From Methanobrevibacter sp. (lineage in GTDB: Archaea; Methanobacteriota; Methanobacteria; Methanobacteriales; Methanobacteriaceae), in assembly GCF_030539665.1 (NCBI RefSeq), contig NZ_JAUNXR010000003.1, forward strand, positions 122,326 through 186,325: 64,000 nt of DNA. Reading direction: 5' to 3'. Positions 25,187 to 32,761 of this stretch are shown piece after piece. Each line of letters begins with the position of its first letter. Position 1 is the first letter of the stretch. Under the pieces are notes generated by a model. It was not told where the DNA came from, ran no database searches, and was given only the letters and a program-made list of their open reading frames with translations. A program made the translations under genes and the position numbers.

Positions 25187-25317
25187 CCTTCCTAATTTTC
25201 CTTAAAACATAGCTTTAAAGCTTTCTCCATCCTTCCTTAAAAAGCATTATTAGGAACGCTGAAATTATTACTAAAATGAGGATGGTTTCCTAAATTCTAA
25301 AAAAATAAAAAAAAGAG

Positions 25318-26184
25318 TTAGTAATGACTTTGTGGAGTCATTCCTAAATGATGATCTTCTGATTTTTTGCCTGGAATTCCGTATGCGTCTGCCCTGCATT
25401 GGGTACATGCCCTGAATACCGGCAACACTTCTTCCACTTCGCCCCTTACCTTTTCCATCATTGAACAGCCAGGACGTTCGTAGTCCTTCATCTTGTTTAA
25501 TGGTATTAAAGGCAATACGTTCATAAGTGAAGCTCCGCGCTCCTTTACCTCTTTAGCTATTTCTACTATGTGGTCGTCATTCAATCCTGGAATAAGAACT
25601 GAGTTGACCTTGACCACCATTCCGTTTTCAGCTGCCTTTTGAATTCCTTCCAATTGGTTTTTGATGAGAATTTCTACAGCTTCACGTCCTTTTATGATTT
25701 CGCCATCATAGTTTATGAATGTGTAGATTTCCTTTGCTATGTCCGGATCAATTGCATTTACTGTTACGGTTACGGAGTTTACTCCTAGCTCAGCTAATTT
25801 ATCCGCATATTTTGGAAGCAGGAGTCCGTTGGTACTCATACATTTGATTAGATCAGGATTGGTATCCTGAAGTTTTTCAAAGAATTCTAGGGTTTCCTCG
25901 TTTGCAAGGGAATCTCCAGGTCCTGCAACTCCAACAACTGCGATTGGTCCTTCAGCTGTTACTTCTTCTATGTGTTTGATTGCATCGTCTGGTTTCATTA
26001 CGCAGGATGCAACCCCTGGACGGTCCTCCTGATCGTTTTTTAAGTCCCTTGTACAGAAATTACAGTAAATATTACATTTTGGTGCAACTGGAACGTGTGC
26101 TCTTCCTACTTTATCATGTACTTTTTCATTGAAGCATGGGTGTGCTTTTGTTATGTGTGCAAATTTAGAGCCATTGCCTACCAT
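25318..26184 (-). CDS. nifB: NifB-type radical SAM protein (FeS cluster maturase)
   Basis: A 288-residue radical SAM enzyme with the SAM-cluster motif C37-NIY-C41-NF-C44, AGPGDSLANEETLEF and the C-terminal CTQCRADAYG that holds further cluster ligands in NifB. It is the short archaeal form without a NifX-like tail. NifB fuses two [4Fe-4S] clusters and inserts carbide and sulfur to give the [8Fe-9S-C] L-cluster. No nifHDKEN gene is present in the window. It lies 60 bases downstream of mmp17, on the strand of the methanogenesis-marker run, with AGGTAGTGAT before its ATG and a possible TATA of its own. Confidence 0.9.
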   Translation of the reverse strand: MVGNGSKFAHITKAHPCFNEKVHDKVGRAHVPVAPKCNIYCNFCTRDLKNDQEDRPGVASCVMKPDDAIKHIEEVTAEGPIAVVGVAGPGDSLANEETLEFFEKLQDTNPDLIKCMSTNGLLLPKYADKLAELGVNSVTVTVNAIDPDIAKEIYTFINYDGEIIKGREAVEILIKNQLEGIQKAAENGMVVKVNSVLIPGLNDDHIVEIAKEVKERGASLMNVLPLIPLNKMKDYERPGCSMMEKVRGEVEEVLPVFRACTQCRADAYGIPGKKSEDHHLGMTPQSHY

Positions 26185-26244
26185 AATATCACTACCTTTT
26201 TATTATATTTGTTTGTATATTAAGGAACTAATTTAAATACTTTG

Positions 26245-26805
26245 CTATTCAACACCATTAAGTTCGTCGATGTAAACATGCATTTTCTCAATCCAATCGT
26301 CTTTAATCAACTCATCGGTAGCTATGACTGCAATGATATCCCCCTCAGACATGTCTTTAATGATCTTAAAGCCCTCAGGCAAAATTCTGAATATTGCATC
26401 ATAGATTCTTCTCTGGAGGTTAGAATGAGGGTCATCCACAACCATGGTCGCCAAATCTGTTTGATCTCCAGGAAGCTCGATGTTGAATCTTGTTGGCTGA
26501 TAAATATCCTCCCTTGAAAACATGAACCAAAGCTTCTTCAGGATATTTGGAAGGTAATTTTCATTTTCAACAAAAATGTCAGTTACATCCTCATCCTTCT
26601 TATATCTTAATTTTGCAATGTCTTCAAGCTTTTTAGCAGAGGATGTTTTCTTCATCTGAATGGCCAATATGAAAACGGGCTCTCTAGGATCGACAAATGC
26701 TTTTAAATCCTGTACAGAAGGTCCAAGAACCAAGTCCTGGAAAATTTGCTTGATAATCATTTCATATACTTCTGCACCTTTTTTATCATAGCATTCAACT
26801 AACAT
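26245..26805 (-). CDS. mmp17: Methanogenesis marker protein 17
   Basis: A 186-residue cytosolic protein with segments VECYDKKGAEVYEMIIKQIF, FVDPREPVFILAIQM and RFNIELPGDQTDLAT. I assign it to the methanogenesis marker 17 family by sequence character and by its place before marker 15, 5, 6 and 3 genes. As I recall the literature, Mmp17 is part of the complex that activates methyl-coenzyme M reductase with McrC, Mmp3, Mmp7 and the ATPase A2. GAGATGATT precedes the ATG, 17 bases after the stop of mmp15. Confidence 0.82.
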   Translation of the reverse strand: MLVECYDKKGAEVYEMIIKQIFQDLVLGPSVQDLKAFVDPREPVFILAIQMKKTSSAKKLEDIAKLRYKKDEDVTDIFVENENYLPNILKKLWFMFSREDIYQPTRFNIELPGDQTDLATMVVDDPHSNLQRRIYDAIFRILPEGFKIIKDMSEGDIIAVIATDELIKDDWIEKMHVYIDELNGVE

Positions 26806-26821
26806 AAAATCATCTCAAAGT

Positions 26822-28060
26822 CTATTTGTCTTGTCTGTGTCCCATTCCAGATACTAAAAGTGCAGCTCCAACAGCACCGATGTGTTGTGAGTATTCAGGA
26901 ACAATAACATCAATTCCACCTAACATTTCACTAACGGCTTCAACAAGACCAGAAATCAAGGAAGTTCCCCCTACCTGAATAAGAGGTTCTCTTAAGTCAA
27001 TTTCCTGGAGTTGTTGTTCATAGACCTGTTCAGCTACAGAGTGACATGCAGCTGCCGCAGCATCAGCCTTGGAACCTCCTGCAGCCAATGTAGTAACCAA
27101 GTCCTGAATACCGAATACAATACAGTAACTGTTTAGCAATGCATTGCGATAGTTACCCTGCAATGCCAATGGTCCCAATTGGTCGATTGTTACGTCCAAA
27201 CGACGGGAAGTCATGTCCAAGAATCTTCCGGAAGCACCTGCACAGATACCACCCATTGTGAAGTTGTCAGGAATTCCATCGTTTACTGTGATTACCTTGT
27301 TGTCCATACCACCAATATCTAACACGGTAGCTTCACCCTTCTGATGACCTGCCAAATATACTGCACCTTTTGCGTTAACTGACAGTTCTTCCTGAATCAA
27401 TTCTGCATTTAACTGTTTACCGATGTTTATACGACCATATCCTGTAGTTCCAATACCGTCCACATCATCGATTGTGTATCCTGTTCCTTCAAATGCCTCG
27501 TCAACACCAATGAATACGGATTCCATGATGTCCTTGGTTTCTGTCCAGCCGGTTCCTATAACCTTGTTGTTTTCCATAGCTACAACCTTGGTTGTTGTTG
27601 AACCTGAATCGATACCTAAGGTCAATCCTTCTTGTTTTTCACGAGCAAGAATGCTTCTACGTGTTACTGTAGTAGCTAACGCTTCCATACGGATAAACAA
27701 TTCGTCTGCCTTTGTTCTTTCTGTAAATGAATAGGTAACTACAGGTATACGAGTATTGTCCTGAATAAATTTACGTACCGCGTTTCTTACAAGCGCACCT
27801 TCTGCACATCTAAAACAGGTTGCAATAAATACCGCATCCGCCTTGCTTTTTCCTTCAACGATTGACATTGCTCTTGCAATCATCAACTTTAAGCTTGAAC
27901 TCTGTGCTGAAAAACCGAATTTAGCACAAGCTTCCTCAATATAATCCAAATCAATTTCAGGAAGAACGATTTCCGCTCCAAATGTAAGAGCTGCTTTTTC
28001 AATTTCTTTTTGAACACCACTGTATTCTGTTCCACATGAAACTAAAGCGATTTTAACCAT
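26822..28060 (-). CDS. mmp15: Methanogenesis marker protein 15 (BadF/BadG/HgdC-type ATPase)
   Basis: A 412-residue protein. An N-terminal domain of about 140 residues contains [11 protein letters not shown]. It is followed by an ASKHA ATPase of the BcrA/BadF/HgdC activase group with [31 protein letters not shown] and [13 protein letters not shown]; the last holds the cysteine that coordinates the bridging [4Fe-4S] cluster in HgdC-type activators. Such enzymes drive low-potential electron transfer with ATP. This makes it a plausible reductive activator in methanogenesis, though its exact target is not proven. GAGGAGG lies upstream; it follows mmp5 by 2 bases. Confidence 0.9.
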
Positions 28061-28062
28061 GA

Positions 28063-28593
28063 CTAGTCCTCCTCAAGTTCTTTTTCTACAAATTCAAGGT
28101 CTTCTTTTTCACTGACCGGTGCCTCATCCTTAAAGTCTTCATCACTTTTTACAAGTTCATCTAATGAATCAAGGAAATCATTAATTTCATTAACCATTTG
28201 ATAGGTTTCATCCTTATTAGTTGGATAGGTTACCTCTAAAGTTGGAATATCCTTATCCCTAAGCAAGAATGTTGATAATTCATTAGTTCTTGCACATCCA
28301 ACACAACCGAAACCGAATGGTGCGCCGTCCACAATAATTGCAGCCTCGGCAGCATCTATCAACGGTCCGATAATTGACATTCTTCCACGAACACCGGATG
28401 GGACCTCAATAGCCGCATATTTAAGTCCTTTGATCGGGTCGTCTTCGGTAATGTTCATAGGAGGAGAATCAATCTCCGGATCTTTTACTTTTTGCCTAAT
28501 CTGTTTTTGTAGTGCTAAAGGAGTGTGTCCTTTTCTTTCTATTAAATCTGCTAAAATTAATGAGTTTGGAGGATAAATAGCTATTTCTACCAT
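28063..28593 (-). CDS. mmp5: Methanogenesis marker protein 5
   Basis: A 176-residue protein. A conserved centre [20 protein letters not shown] is followed by [17 protein letters not shown], a C-x2-C pair that may bind metal or an FeS cluster, and there is an acidic C-terminal tail of about 30 residues. The assignment to marker 5 rests on this segment and on the fixed gene neighbourhood. AGGTGAT precedes the ATG. Function is not established; cotranscription with marker 15 is clear from the 2-base gap. Confidence 0.82.
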
Positions 28594-28608
28594 ACATAAT
28601 CACCTACT

Positions 28609-29064
28609 TTAAGATTCGTTCATAATATTTTTAACTAAATCAATGTCAACAGGATGTTTTTTGGAAACCTTAACATCTTTTCTTTTCTCTAATGCATCAG
28701 CCACATCACCAAGAAGTCTGAATTCCTTTTCCATTTGGTGGAAACCTTCACGAGGGCCGAATCTTTGACCCCTACATCTTCTAGGATCCCCAGGTGCAAA
28801 TCCCCTGTCCTTAGTAAAAATATGATTTGGATCAAGTTTTCTAATCTCTTCTAAAGCCTTCTTAACATCTTTCTCCTTTCCGCTAACCATAGCGCCGTAG
28901 CAAGTATTCTTGATTGTCAAAGGCAAGTCAAGCATGTGCATTTCACTTACAATCTCACTTTCACTTACTCTGGCACCTGGAGCAAGAATAATCATACGGG
29001 TTACAACATCAGGATCCCAATCTTCTTTACTTAATTCAGGCCTCGGGCATAAATTGTGTGACAT
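28609..29064 (-). CDS. mmp6: Methanogenesis marker protein 6
   Basis: A 151-residue protein, mainly alpha/beta, with [36 protein letters not shown] and a [20 protein letters not shown] segment rich in arginine and glycine. The start at 29064 has GGAGAT 7 bases upstream and overlaps the end of mmp3 by 29 bases. Earlier ATGs in the frame are less likely. Function is unknown; it is found only in methane-metabolising archaea. Confidence 0.82.
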
Positions 29065-30583
29065 ACAAAACATCTCCATCTTTAAGTTTTTCAAGAATTT
29101 CAAAATCACTGCAGACTTTTCCTACAATATTTGTTGCTGCAAAGGACTCTGCAGTAGGTCCGAATTCAGAATTATCTTCAAATCTTACACCAATCAATCC
29201 GACATTTTTAGCAGCCATGTTGGTGATTCCAATTTCACCAGCCTTAACAATGTCTTTTGGTACGTTTTCCGGAATTAAACCTTTTGCGTTAGCAGCATCC
29301 CCTTGGAAAATAACTATTTTCATTCCAGGAACTGCAAAGTGAACTTTTAGGCTACCGATAGGATTTTCAGCAAGGCCAGTTAATTTTTCAAGATACCATT
29401 TTGATCTTGGCGCCTTATCCGTCAACTCAATGGTACATAGCTCATCCTTGTTAATTCCTTTAGTAAACACTTTTCCCTCTTTTAGAATGTCAAGAGTGAA
29501 ATGAGGTGTTTGAGACACGATTAAAGCATCGTCATCTGTTACACCATCTCTGATTTGTTTAATTCCTAATGAGTCTAATAATTTATTAGCTTCAGCTTGG
29601 GTTGTATTTAGGGTCATTATCCTTTGCTGTTCGGAAATTACAGTAATGAAATCATTTTCCTTAGCAATATCGATTATTTCCATACCGTTTGTAATGTGTC
29701 CCACAGTAGTATGGCTTGGAGCTAGAACCCTATTTTCACGATAAACATAAACTCTTCCAACACCTATACCTTCATTTCTAACAGTTACTGTTCCCTTGCG
29801 GCGTGGTGTAAGGTCTTCCTTAGGCTTGTCAATACCTTGAAGTTCATAAAAACCAAGGAAAGAATTAGAATCGAAACTTACCTTTACCTTTCCTCCGCTA
29901 ATAAGACTGAACAGGTGTTCGGCACATACTGGTGAATTTTCATCAATATCCAATGAAACATAGGTATACAATTCATTGCCTTCCTCTAAAACAATGTCCA
30001 GATCGGAAACTGAGAGGGTATTGGTAGTTACGCTTCTTTCAATAATAGGTTCCACATTTATTACGCCGTCACGTTCTGTCAATAGATCAAGAGTCTTCTT
30101 ACCACCAATGACTCTTGCAAAAATACCCTTGTTGAATGGAGGCACACTGTAAACGTTGCTTACATTCTCTTTAATGAGAATAAGGTGGGTTGATTCATTA
30201 CTGAAACTTGACAAGCTTAAAACAACATCCCCTTCATAATACTTGTATTCGTCAGGTGTTGGTTCAAGGTCAGTGACAATAGGACCTATTGCAACCTCGC
30301 TAGGTGTAGACCATCTGATGTTAAGATCATCAAAAAGACTATAATTTTCTTTCCATAACTCAACTAAAGGAGCTGCTGCTTCTTCGTCAGTTAATTCAAT
30401 AATTATAGAACCTTTATTAGTTTTAATCTTATATTTACTAATATTCTTCTCTAATTCCTCTTTTCCTCTGATTAAACAGAGTATACTTCCTGGAGAATAT
30501 GGAGCGTTGGCCAGTTCAATAACTTCTTCGATTGTTGAACCGTCCTTGACCTCCATCTCTTCGCCATTGACTTTAATTAACAT
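29036..30583 (-). CDS. mmp3: Methanogenesis marker protein 3
   Basis: A 515-residue protein. It starts with a ubiquitin/MoaD-like domain ([20 protein letters not shown]), followed by beta-rich repeats with cyclophilin-like segments ([37 protein letters not shown]). As I recall the literature, Mmp3 is a subunit of the ATP-dependent methyl-coenzyme M reductase activation complex. GGGAG precedes the ATG at 30583; four earlier codons are unsupported. It heads the tightly packed mmp3-mmp6-mmp5-mmp15-mmp17 run and lies 44 bases after mmp2. Confidence 0.87.
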
Positions 30584-30627
30584 ACAATCTCCCATAAATA
30601 AGAATTAATTATAAATTTGATCAATAA

Positions 30628-31602
30628 TTATGTACCTTTAAAAACCGGATTTTTATTCTGATTGAAGAGTTCTACTTTCTCATCACCGCTAACTACAAAA
30701 AGACTGTTGCCGTCAGTTATTTCACCAACAACAGCCGCATTTATTGAAAATTTATTCAAGTAATCAATAATTTCAGAACAGTTTTCTTCATCTGCAGTAA
30801 ATACAAAACCAGAGCCAGGATACATTTTAAGCCAAGCATCCCACTCAACATCATCAACTTTAGGAATATCCTCCAGATTGACGATTGCTCCTTTATCTGA
30901 AGCTTCCAAAAGCATTTCCAATGTTCCTAAAATTCCAGGGTTGCTGATGTCCTTACCTGATTTGATGTAGTCGTTCTCAGCCAAATATTGAACTGCAGTT
31001 ATCTGATCCCTGACCAGTTGAGCATCCTTCCCATAGGTAGTGTCCCAATTAAGAGAAAACATTTCATGAGGTTTGCCATCCAAATCAATGGCAACAATAA
31101 CCTTATCCCCTATTTGAGCATTGAAACTAGTAATAAGCTTATCCTTTTGGGCAATACCCACAATAGCCACTCCTAAAGAATCAACAGCACCGTCCGGATG
31201 CAAATGACCTCCAACCATTGGAACTCCAAATTTCAAACATCCGTCCTTGATTCCAGTAAGCAGCTCCTCATAGATTTCATCATGAGCTATTGACATGATA
31301 TTTACCATGGCCAATGGTTTACCACCCATAGCTGCAATATCGTTCACATTAACAAGCACTGCACAATAACCAGCCCAGTAAGGGTTTACATCCATTATCT
31401 GACCCCAAATTCCATCAGCAGCAACCAGCAATGCCTGATTATTTCCAATATCAATAGCTGATGCGTCATCCCCAATGTCGATAATCACATCGCCAGAAAC
31501 ATTGTAGGCATCCTCCAATAATGAGATGACATTATTGATTGAATTTTTACGAGTGACGCCTTCGAATTCTTGAATAGATTTAGCTAGCTTTTTTAAATCC
31601 AA
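30628..31602 (-). CDS. mmp2: Methanogenesis marker protein 2 (AIR synthase/ThiL/HypE-like)
   Basis: A 324-residue protein of the PurM/ThiL/SelD/HypE superfamily: IDIGDDASAID (Mg-ATP aspartates), NVNDIAAMGGKPLAMVNIMS and VPMVGGHLHPDG, the usual ATP-binding and dimer motifs. Members phosphorylate or dehydrate small substrates using ATP; the marker 2 substrate is not known. It starts at a TTG with GGAAGTG upstream, unusual but well supported by spacing. It belongs to the run from nob1 to mmp17. Confidence 0.88.
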   Translation of the reverse strand: MDLKKLAKSIQEFEGVTRKNSINNVISLLEDAYNVSGDVIIDIGDDASAIDIGNNQALLVAADGIWGQIMDVNPYWAGYCAVLVNVNDIAAMGGKPLAMVNIMSIAHDEIYEELLTGIKDGCLKFGVPMVGGHLHPDGAVDSLGVAIVGIAQKDKLITSFNAQIGDKVIVAIDLDGKPHEMFSLNWDTTYGKDAQLVRDQITAVQYLAENDYIKSGKDISNPGILGTLEMLLEASDKGAIVNLEDIPKVDDVEWDAWLKMYPGSGFVFTADEENCSEIIDYLNKFSINAAVVGEITDGNSLFVVSGDEKVELFNQNKNPVFKGT

Positions 31603-31627: not shown

Positions 31628-32752
31628 TTAAATAACTTTAAGTTTATATTTACAATTCATATTATTTAATATTTCAATAATGGCCTGTTTCATATCTATT
31701 TTTTCATCACTTCCAAATTCCAAAATTGGGGAATTGTTGAAGATTCCATTAAAAATTTCCTTGCCTGCAACATCATCAAAGCCACTTTCAAGCTCGAAAA
31801 TTATGGACCCTGGAGTTTTGAAGCCATGCTCAACAACCTTGTCTAGGTCGCCGTCTGTAATTCCGATAATCGGTATTTCAAACCGGTACAGAATATCCGA
31901 TGAAATCAAGGTTGTGTCGTCCCCAACGGTTACGACCAAATCTGCATCCCTGTATCTGTAGATATCCTCCCCTGCATGGTCTACGAAGGCCACCCTATAA
32001 CTTTCGTTTTCAGAGCCCTTCTCCAAGATCCTTGGCTTCACATCACTTTTTCTCAAAAGCCCTGTCTTTATAATTGCCTTGTCCAAATCAACCTTTGAAA
32101 GCTTTTCAACCCCATGAGGCTTTAAAATACCTCCTTCAATATCAACGATGTAGCCATCTTCAGCTATCAAAACAAGCCTGTCGGAGGTTGACTTGCCTAT
32201 TATGACGCTGTTTACCATTATGTTTTCCCCAGGGCTTACTCCATGAATCAGCCTGTGAATTCTGTTGTCTTCAAAATCCATCCCGAAGTGTTTTTCGTAT
32301 ATTTCCTCGGGAGTTACCCTATTGAGATTGAATTTGCAGGCTATTTCATCTGCAACGTCTTCAGCATCCCCGTTCCAAAGGATAACACTACCATCATCTT
32401 CACCAGGCCTTTCAATCTGTATTAATGGAATGTCGTTTTCCTTGATCTTATCAAAATAATGATTTACAACCTTATAGCCAAAGACCTGCCCTGTAACATC
32501 AGACTTTCCGTAGTTTAAAAGAAAAATCATGTCCTTTCCATCATCGTTAAATAGCTTCAGGGATTCGCTTGGAACCAGCTTTCGGGAAATGTCAATGACA
32601 TTCTCCAATGAGGAGTCTATGACTGCAGTCCTTCCCATGGTTCCTCCCAACCTTGCAGATACACTGCCGAAATCCCTTAAATAATCAATTATAATTTTAG
32701 CATATCCGGAATCTATAATGTTCGGACCGTGAACAACAACACCAATATCCAT
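31628..32752 (-). CDS. Conserved methanogen protein, DUF2117-like
   Basis: A 374-residue protein. It has an N-terminal domain with HGPNIIDSGYAKIIIDYL and LGGTMGRTAVID, a middle region RLIHGVSPGENIMVNSVIIG, and a C-terminal domain with LVVTVGDDTTLISSDIL. I associate it with archaeal DUF2117 from memory; no enzyme function is known. GGTG precedes the ATG. It lies between nob1 (9 bases) and mmp2 (25 bases), so it is cotranscribed with them and may be linked to methanogen-specific cofactor biology. Confidence 0.65.
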   Translation of the reverse strand: MDIGVVVHGPNIIDSGYAKIIIDYLRDFGSVSARLGGTMGRTAVIDSSLENVIDISRKLVPSESLKLFNDDGKDMIFLLNYGKSDVTGQVFGYKVVNHYFDKIKENDIPLIQIERPGEDDGSVILWNGDAEDVADEIACKFNLNRVTPEEIYEKHFGMDFEDNRIHRLIHGVSPGENIMVNSVIIGKSTSDRLVLIAEDGYIVDIEGGILKPHGVEKLSKVDLDKAIIKTGLLRKSDVKPRILEKGSENESYRVAFVDHAGEDIYRYRDADLVVTVGDDTTLISSDILYRFEIPIIGITDGDLDKVVEHGFKTPGSIIFELESGFDDVAGKEIFNGIFNNSPILEFGSDEKIDMKQAIIEILNNMNCKYKLKVI

Positions 32753-32761
32753 TGAAAACAC

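Follow-up and report, generated by a model that had tools for sequence, protein, structure and literature searches.

Why does a methanogen keep nifB when it has no nitrogenase, and why does this gene follow a run of genes for the activation of methyl-coenzyme M reductase (MCR)? The question arises from the window, i.e. the whole stretch of 64,000 nucleotides analysed here (C3:122326-186325), which belongs to the 1.62 Mb genome of a Methanobrevibacter sp. (13 contigs, 95% complete). A sequence-only reading of this DNA had proposed that NifB supplies nitrogenase-like clusters to the ATP-driven MCR activation complex. The clusters that it invoked have indeed been reported: the complex carries three [8Fe-9S-C]-like clusters on McrC and Mmp7, with FeSIII located at the Mmp7/Mmp17 interface (Ramirez-Amador et al. 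2025, PMC12176620). Both the nifB-mmp17 arrangement and its meaning are already known, since the same paper noted that the mmp cluster of M. marburgensis (MTBMA c04360-c04410) is "followed by nifB" and proposed that NifB probably takes part in making the clusters of the activation complex. Earlier work had found that a methanogen nifB lies outside the nif cluster, lacks the nif operator and might have another function (Lie et al. 2022, PMC8809328), and that nifB of M. thermolithotrophicus responds weakly to diazotrophy (log2FC of 1.8, most genes of the nif operon reaching 7.0-8.8; PMC9765008). Our literature search found no study that tests directly, by depletion or in vitro transfer, whether NifB acts in MCR activation.

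Gene order and transcription unit

Profile matches gave the minus-strand order DUF2117-mmp2-mmp3-mmp6-mmp5-mmp15-mmp17-nifB (Table 1). No intergenic gap in this run exceeds 60 bases, and the mmp6 frame overlaps that of mmp3; as the Mmp6 domain begins at residue 39, the true mmp6 start is probably internal. The genes mmp3, mmp6, mmp5, mmp15 and mmp17 form one same-strand run, with family-model scores of 608, 150, 244, 702 and 179 bits (TIGR03291 for the latter), and nifB starts 60 bases (stop to ATG) after mmp17 on the strand shared by all of them, as the sequence-only reading had stated. To the members it had listed we add Mmp2 (TIGR03267, 446 bits) and the DUF2117 protein, both upstream. The mmp3-mmp6-mmp5-mmp15-mmp17 order likewise occurs in loci of the genera g12, g8, g9, g18 and g19.

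Table 1. Features of the nifB locus (positions in the window) and of the second nifB copies (positions in the loci named).
Feature	Position	Strand	Basis
Oligo-T tract (T8 A T7) directly 3' of the nifB stop; putative archaeal-type terminator	25295..25317	-	T-run comparison
nifB: predicted radical-SAM [8Fe-9S-C] cluster (L-cluster/NifB-co) synthase, short archaeal form	25318..26184	-	7BI7/7JMA alignment and ligand-region residues
mmp17-nifB spacer, 60 bases, A+T-rich, ribosome-binding-like AAAGGTAGTGAT	26185..26244	-	
mmp17 (DUF2113): MCR activation complex subunit, FeSIII cluster interface	26245..26805	-	family models; role from PMC12176620
mmp15: C-terminal HgdC/BcrAD-type ATPase ("archerase") domain	26822..28060	-	family models; 4EHT and 1HUX matches
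mmp5 (DUF2112)	28063..28593	-	family models
mmp6 (DUF2102)	28609..29109	-	family models
mmp3: MCR activation complex subunit	29036..30595	-	family model; start of 30583 given previously is an in-frame ATG
mmp2: AIR-synthase/SelD-like protein	30628..31602	-	family models; order kept in relatives
DUF2117 protein, upstream member of the run	31628..32761	-	family model; order kept in relatives
Second nifB after D-, K- and H-like genes	L122:7168-12173; L125:5316-10193; L124		

The 3' end of nifB reads TAACTCTTTTTTTTATTTTTTT, and an oligo-T tract follows nifB while none follows mmp17. In every genome examined of genus g1, which we take to be the M. smithii group, the longest T-run within the 60 bases after nifB measures 6-10, as compared to only 2-4 in the mmp17-nifB spacer; a T-run of at least 6 has a chance of 8% in random 60-mers of the window, and 28% in A+T-rich 60-mers. 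The tract after nifB is thus the probable end of the transcription unit. Given the 60-base gap, and a terminator-like tract only after nifB, we infer that nifB is probably cotranscribed with mmp17, though the A+T-rich spacer may also contain an internal promoter. In the genera g6-g10, g15 and g16 the spacer is longer (about 240-520 bases) and mostly carries T-runs, which suggests that nifB has its own transcript there.

The NifB protein and its ligand residues

The 288-residue NifB scored 306 bits against TIGR01290, under the model cut-off of 343.65; the match stops at model position 282 of 441, which indicates that the C-terminal part of the model has no counterpart in the short archaeal NifB. 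Residues 6-288 align with the crystallised archaeal NifB (7BI7/7JMA, E about 1e-137), and the protein shares with the archaeal structures (7BI7, 7JMA, 7JMB) the SAM motif, the K1 histidine (H30, equivalent to H43 of M. acetivorans NifB, hereafter MaNifB) and the C-terminal CxxC. C17, H30, C37, C41, C44, C115, C260 and C263 are all present and invariant in the 91 NifB rows aligned from the class; C37, C41 and C44 form the radical-SAM CxxxCxxC motif, while the C-terminal pair C260/C263 is the K2-site CxxC. Neither the window NifB nor 7BI7 has a counterpart of MaNifB C264, and C240 is invariant in 91/91 rows. The family and structure matches therefore agree with the identification of a clear NifB previously based on C37/C41/C44 and CTQCRADAYG, and the protein is predicted to make the [8Fe-9S-C] cluster.

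One feature counts against this picture. The K1 ligands of MaNifB are Cys30, Cys63, Cys129 and His43, C63 having been assigned to K1 by mutagenesis (PMC6053413). C17, C115 and H30 are present in the window NifB, but the equivalent of C63, which is a cysteine in 7BI7, is D51, and a cysteine occurs ten residues on, at position 61. C61 may possibly substitute for the missing K1 cysteine, and it is likely to be a relocated ligand. Among the 91 rows, which include a few duplicates, 14 have only the C51-type cysteine, 64 only C61, 13 neither and none both, these states being counted from the alignment and mapped onto the tree by eye. Neither cysteine occurs in genus g9 and in the second nifB copies described below. 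In the NifB tree, also read by eye, the C51 lineage (g7) separates two C61 groups, which implies at least two cysteine moves or one reversal. This mutually exclusive ten-residue move of a cysteine, possibly a cluster ligand, is a new side observation.

Absence of nitrogenase and presence of the proposed clients of the cluster

Family searches of the 95% complete assembly (PF00142, PF00148) found no nifH, nifD, nifK, nifE or nifN, and no nif operon anywhere, so that the absence of nitrogenase noted near the locus holds genome-wide. The only full-length PF00142 gene, on contig C5, encodes CfbC (433 bits, cut-off 402) and falls under the nifH cut-off; the only PF00148 gene, on C1, encodes CfbD (537 bits, cut-off 268). 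The proposed clients of the cluster are present, namely McrC (315 bits, C1:268000) and an Mmp7-like frame of 319 residues 5 kb away, on a contig other than that of nifB. With neither NifEN nor NifDK in the cell, the clusters would go to McrC and Mmp7.

As no Nif-family proteins other than CfbC and CfbD remain in the genome, the client of NifB might be not MCR activation but CfbCD in F430 synthesis, or some further nitrogenase-like enzyme. We consider this extremely unlikely: CfbD was reported to be devoid of [8Fe-9S-C] clusters (PMC12176620), and the genes linked to nifB are those of the activation complex and not cfb genes, cfbC and cfbD being on other contigs.

Conservation of the nifB-mmp17 linkage and persistence of nifB

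Across the phylum, we sampled 152 genomes from 20 genera in 4 families and found nifB in 144 and mmp17 in 146 of them. The two genes share a contig in 134 genomes, and in 133 of these nifB directly follows a co-oriented mmp17 within 1.5 kb (within 200 bases in 102 genomes; gaps measured between match ends), a frequency far above chance; the sole exception is G032, with a distance of 3.4 kb. Gene to gene, the spacers are 2-5 bases long in early-branching thermophiles (Methanothermus G001, g18 and two g19 genomes, including G149) and about 60-70 bases in g1. The adjacency, whose conservation had been left to be checked, is thus kept through the class; its loss was shown only in g5 and g13, where the mmp cluster continues past mmp17 without nifB, and nifB adjoins metG- or mtnA-type genes. 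We take G149 to be M. thermautotrophicus Delta H, G047 M. smithii ATCC 35061, G024 M. ruminantium M1, G001 Methanothermus fervidus, and G128 M. stadtmanae, so that g12 would be Methanosphaera.

The window locus is of the same kind as the M. marburgensis mmp cluster, with the same proposed role, and represents its g1 version. It differs by its 60-base spacer (versus 4 bases in G149) with an oligo-T after nifB, by its relocated third K1-region cysteine, and by a genome devoid of nitrogenase, whereas most g19 genomes carry nif genes.

Runs of N at or over the mmp-nifB block (L143:1-10001, L123:12002-17001, L121:1-2500 and L135:14002-16001) can mimic gene loss, as in G128, or giant frames, as in G119, where a nifB frame of 1990 residues was rejected as the product of such a run.

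Exactly one PF00148 match, of the CfbD type, was found in 96 genomes, of which 91 keep nifB. The five others are G031, G070, G087 and G137, which are 63-82% complete, and G128. We scrutinised G128 because a true absence of nifB would count against our model: this single contig, 99% complete, at first sight lacks nifB, mmp17 and mmp15 while keeping McrC. It retains mmp3, mmp2 and DUF2117, and the 10 kb that follow, the nifB region, are N in the sequence used, so this absence is a masking artefact. That nifB persists without nifHDK, as the sequence-only reading held, is thus borne out, the exceptions being incomplete or masked.

Could nifB be the leftover of a lost nitrogenase, its place beside mmp17 reflecting neutral synteny? 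Many of its relatives within this class do carry nif genes, and linked neighbours can persist by inertia. However, a leftover would be expected to decay, whereas nifB occurs in essentially every near-complete genome, including those with CfbD only, and its ligand residues are invariant. Furthermore, the main copy was inside a nif operon in none of the loci read. In the nif-bearing genera g8, g15 and g19 the single nifB still lies at mmp17, and presumably serves nitrogenase as well. Of the alternatives considered, we find this one the least credible.

Second nifB copies and limits outside the class

In genus g12, four genomes contain nifB twice, and all of them keep the mmp17-linked copy. In three (G114, G126 and G129) the second copy is beside nitrogenase-like genes. 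Complete reading of two of these loci, L122 and L125, gave the order D-like, K-like, NifH-like, nifB, and MarD of methylthio-alkane reductase (9FMG, E 4e-69) is the best match of the L122 D-like protein. Second and mmp17-linked g12 copies form one clade (100/100), which points to a duplication inside that lineage. These second copies resemble marBHDK, where a NifB relative (MarB) is associated with a client of the [8Fe-9S-C] cluster other than nitrogenase (PMC12552129); the client there is a NifDK-like reductase, and that in the window McrC/Mmp7. In the fourth genome, G130, the second nifB (L126:6879-7757) is long-branched, without nitrogenase-like neighbour, and upstream of an adenylosuccinate synthetase-like gene.

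Frames of about 960-1040 residues underlie nitrogenase-family matches in G060, G107, G113, G114, G126, G129, G133, G135 and G136, which suggests that D- and K-like genes are either fused or joined in a single frame with no intervening stop; the G114 locus reads as two adjacent genes.

In Halobacteriota, mmp2, mmp3, mmp5, mmp6, mmp15 and mmp17 were found near nifB at none of 80 loci (E 1e-5; flanks of up to 9 kb, some cut by contig ends); these were single-sequence queries, which a highly diverged mmp17 could escape, mmp15, mmp3 and mmp5 being well conserved. No nifB neighbours shared across Halobacteriota lineages were found. The nifB-mmp linkage is class-specific in this survey of the phylum and of Halobacteriota, and the separate location of nifB in Halobacteriota indicates that linkage is not required for function. 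This class-specificity, the wide occurrence of NifB in archaea, and the second copy of G130 would fit a NifB with an additional client besides MCR activation. We regard such a client as very unlikely, as PF00148 detected no other acceptor in the genome, a search that is blind to acceptors of other families.

Discussion

From the absence of a nif operon and the class-wide adjacency of nifB and mmp17, two checks that could have refuted but instead support the role of cluster supplier first suggested from the window alone, we propose (with a probability of about 0.88) that an MCR-activation operon ends here with nifB and that NifB makes the [8Fe-9S-C] clusters of the activation complex. By the chemistry known from the literature, NifB would fuse two [4Fe-4S] clusters and a SAM-derived carbide into an [8Fe-9S-C] cluster. 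The clusters would then pass to McrC and Mmp7, three per complex, with one at the Mmp7/Mmp17 interface, and would there operate as an electron relay reducing the F430 nickel from Ni(II) to Ni(I). Such a supply of clusters to MCR activation, which we infer, would explain why nifB persists without nitrogenase.

Mmp15 may provide a further element. Its activase domain is of the HgdC type (4EHT, E 1.6e-28; 1HUX, E 4e-25), and its C273 and C313 align with two HgdC cysteines that are ligands of a [4Fe-4S] cluster. In HgdC, these two cysteines hold the interdimer [4Fe-4S] cluster. At its N-terminus Mmp15 carries a further domain of about 145 residues. More tentatively, and with considerable doubt, we envisage the operon as a "make, load and charge" system, in which NifB would deliver clusters directly to the complex via Mmp17, with no need for a NifEN-like scaffold, and the relay would be charged by Mmp15 as its physiological, ATP-driven electron donor. 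The structural study of the complex noted that physiological reduction may require further Mmp proteins (PMC12176620); if our proposal is true, Mmp15 would be the part described there as missing.

Together, these data, in the form of a gene order counted throughout the class, back the view that nitrogenase-type clusters have a role in methane formation that is independent of nitrogen fixation. Non-diazotrophic gut-type methanogens are clean organisms in which to test it, and Mmp15 and the relocated NifB cysteine offer testable details.
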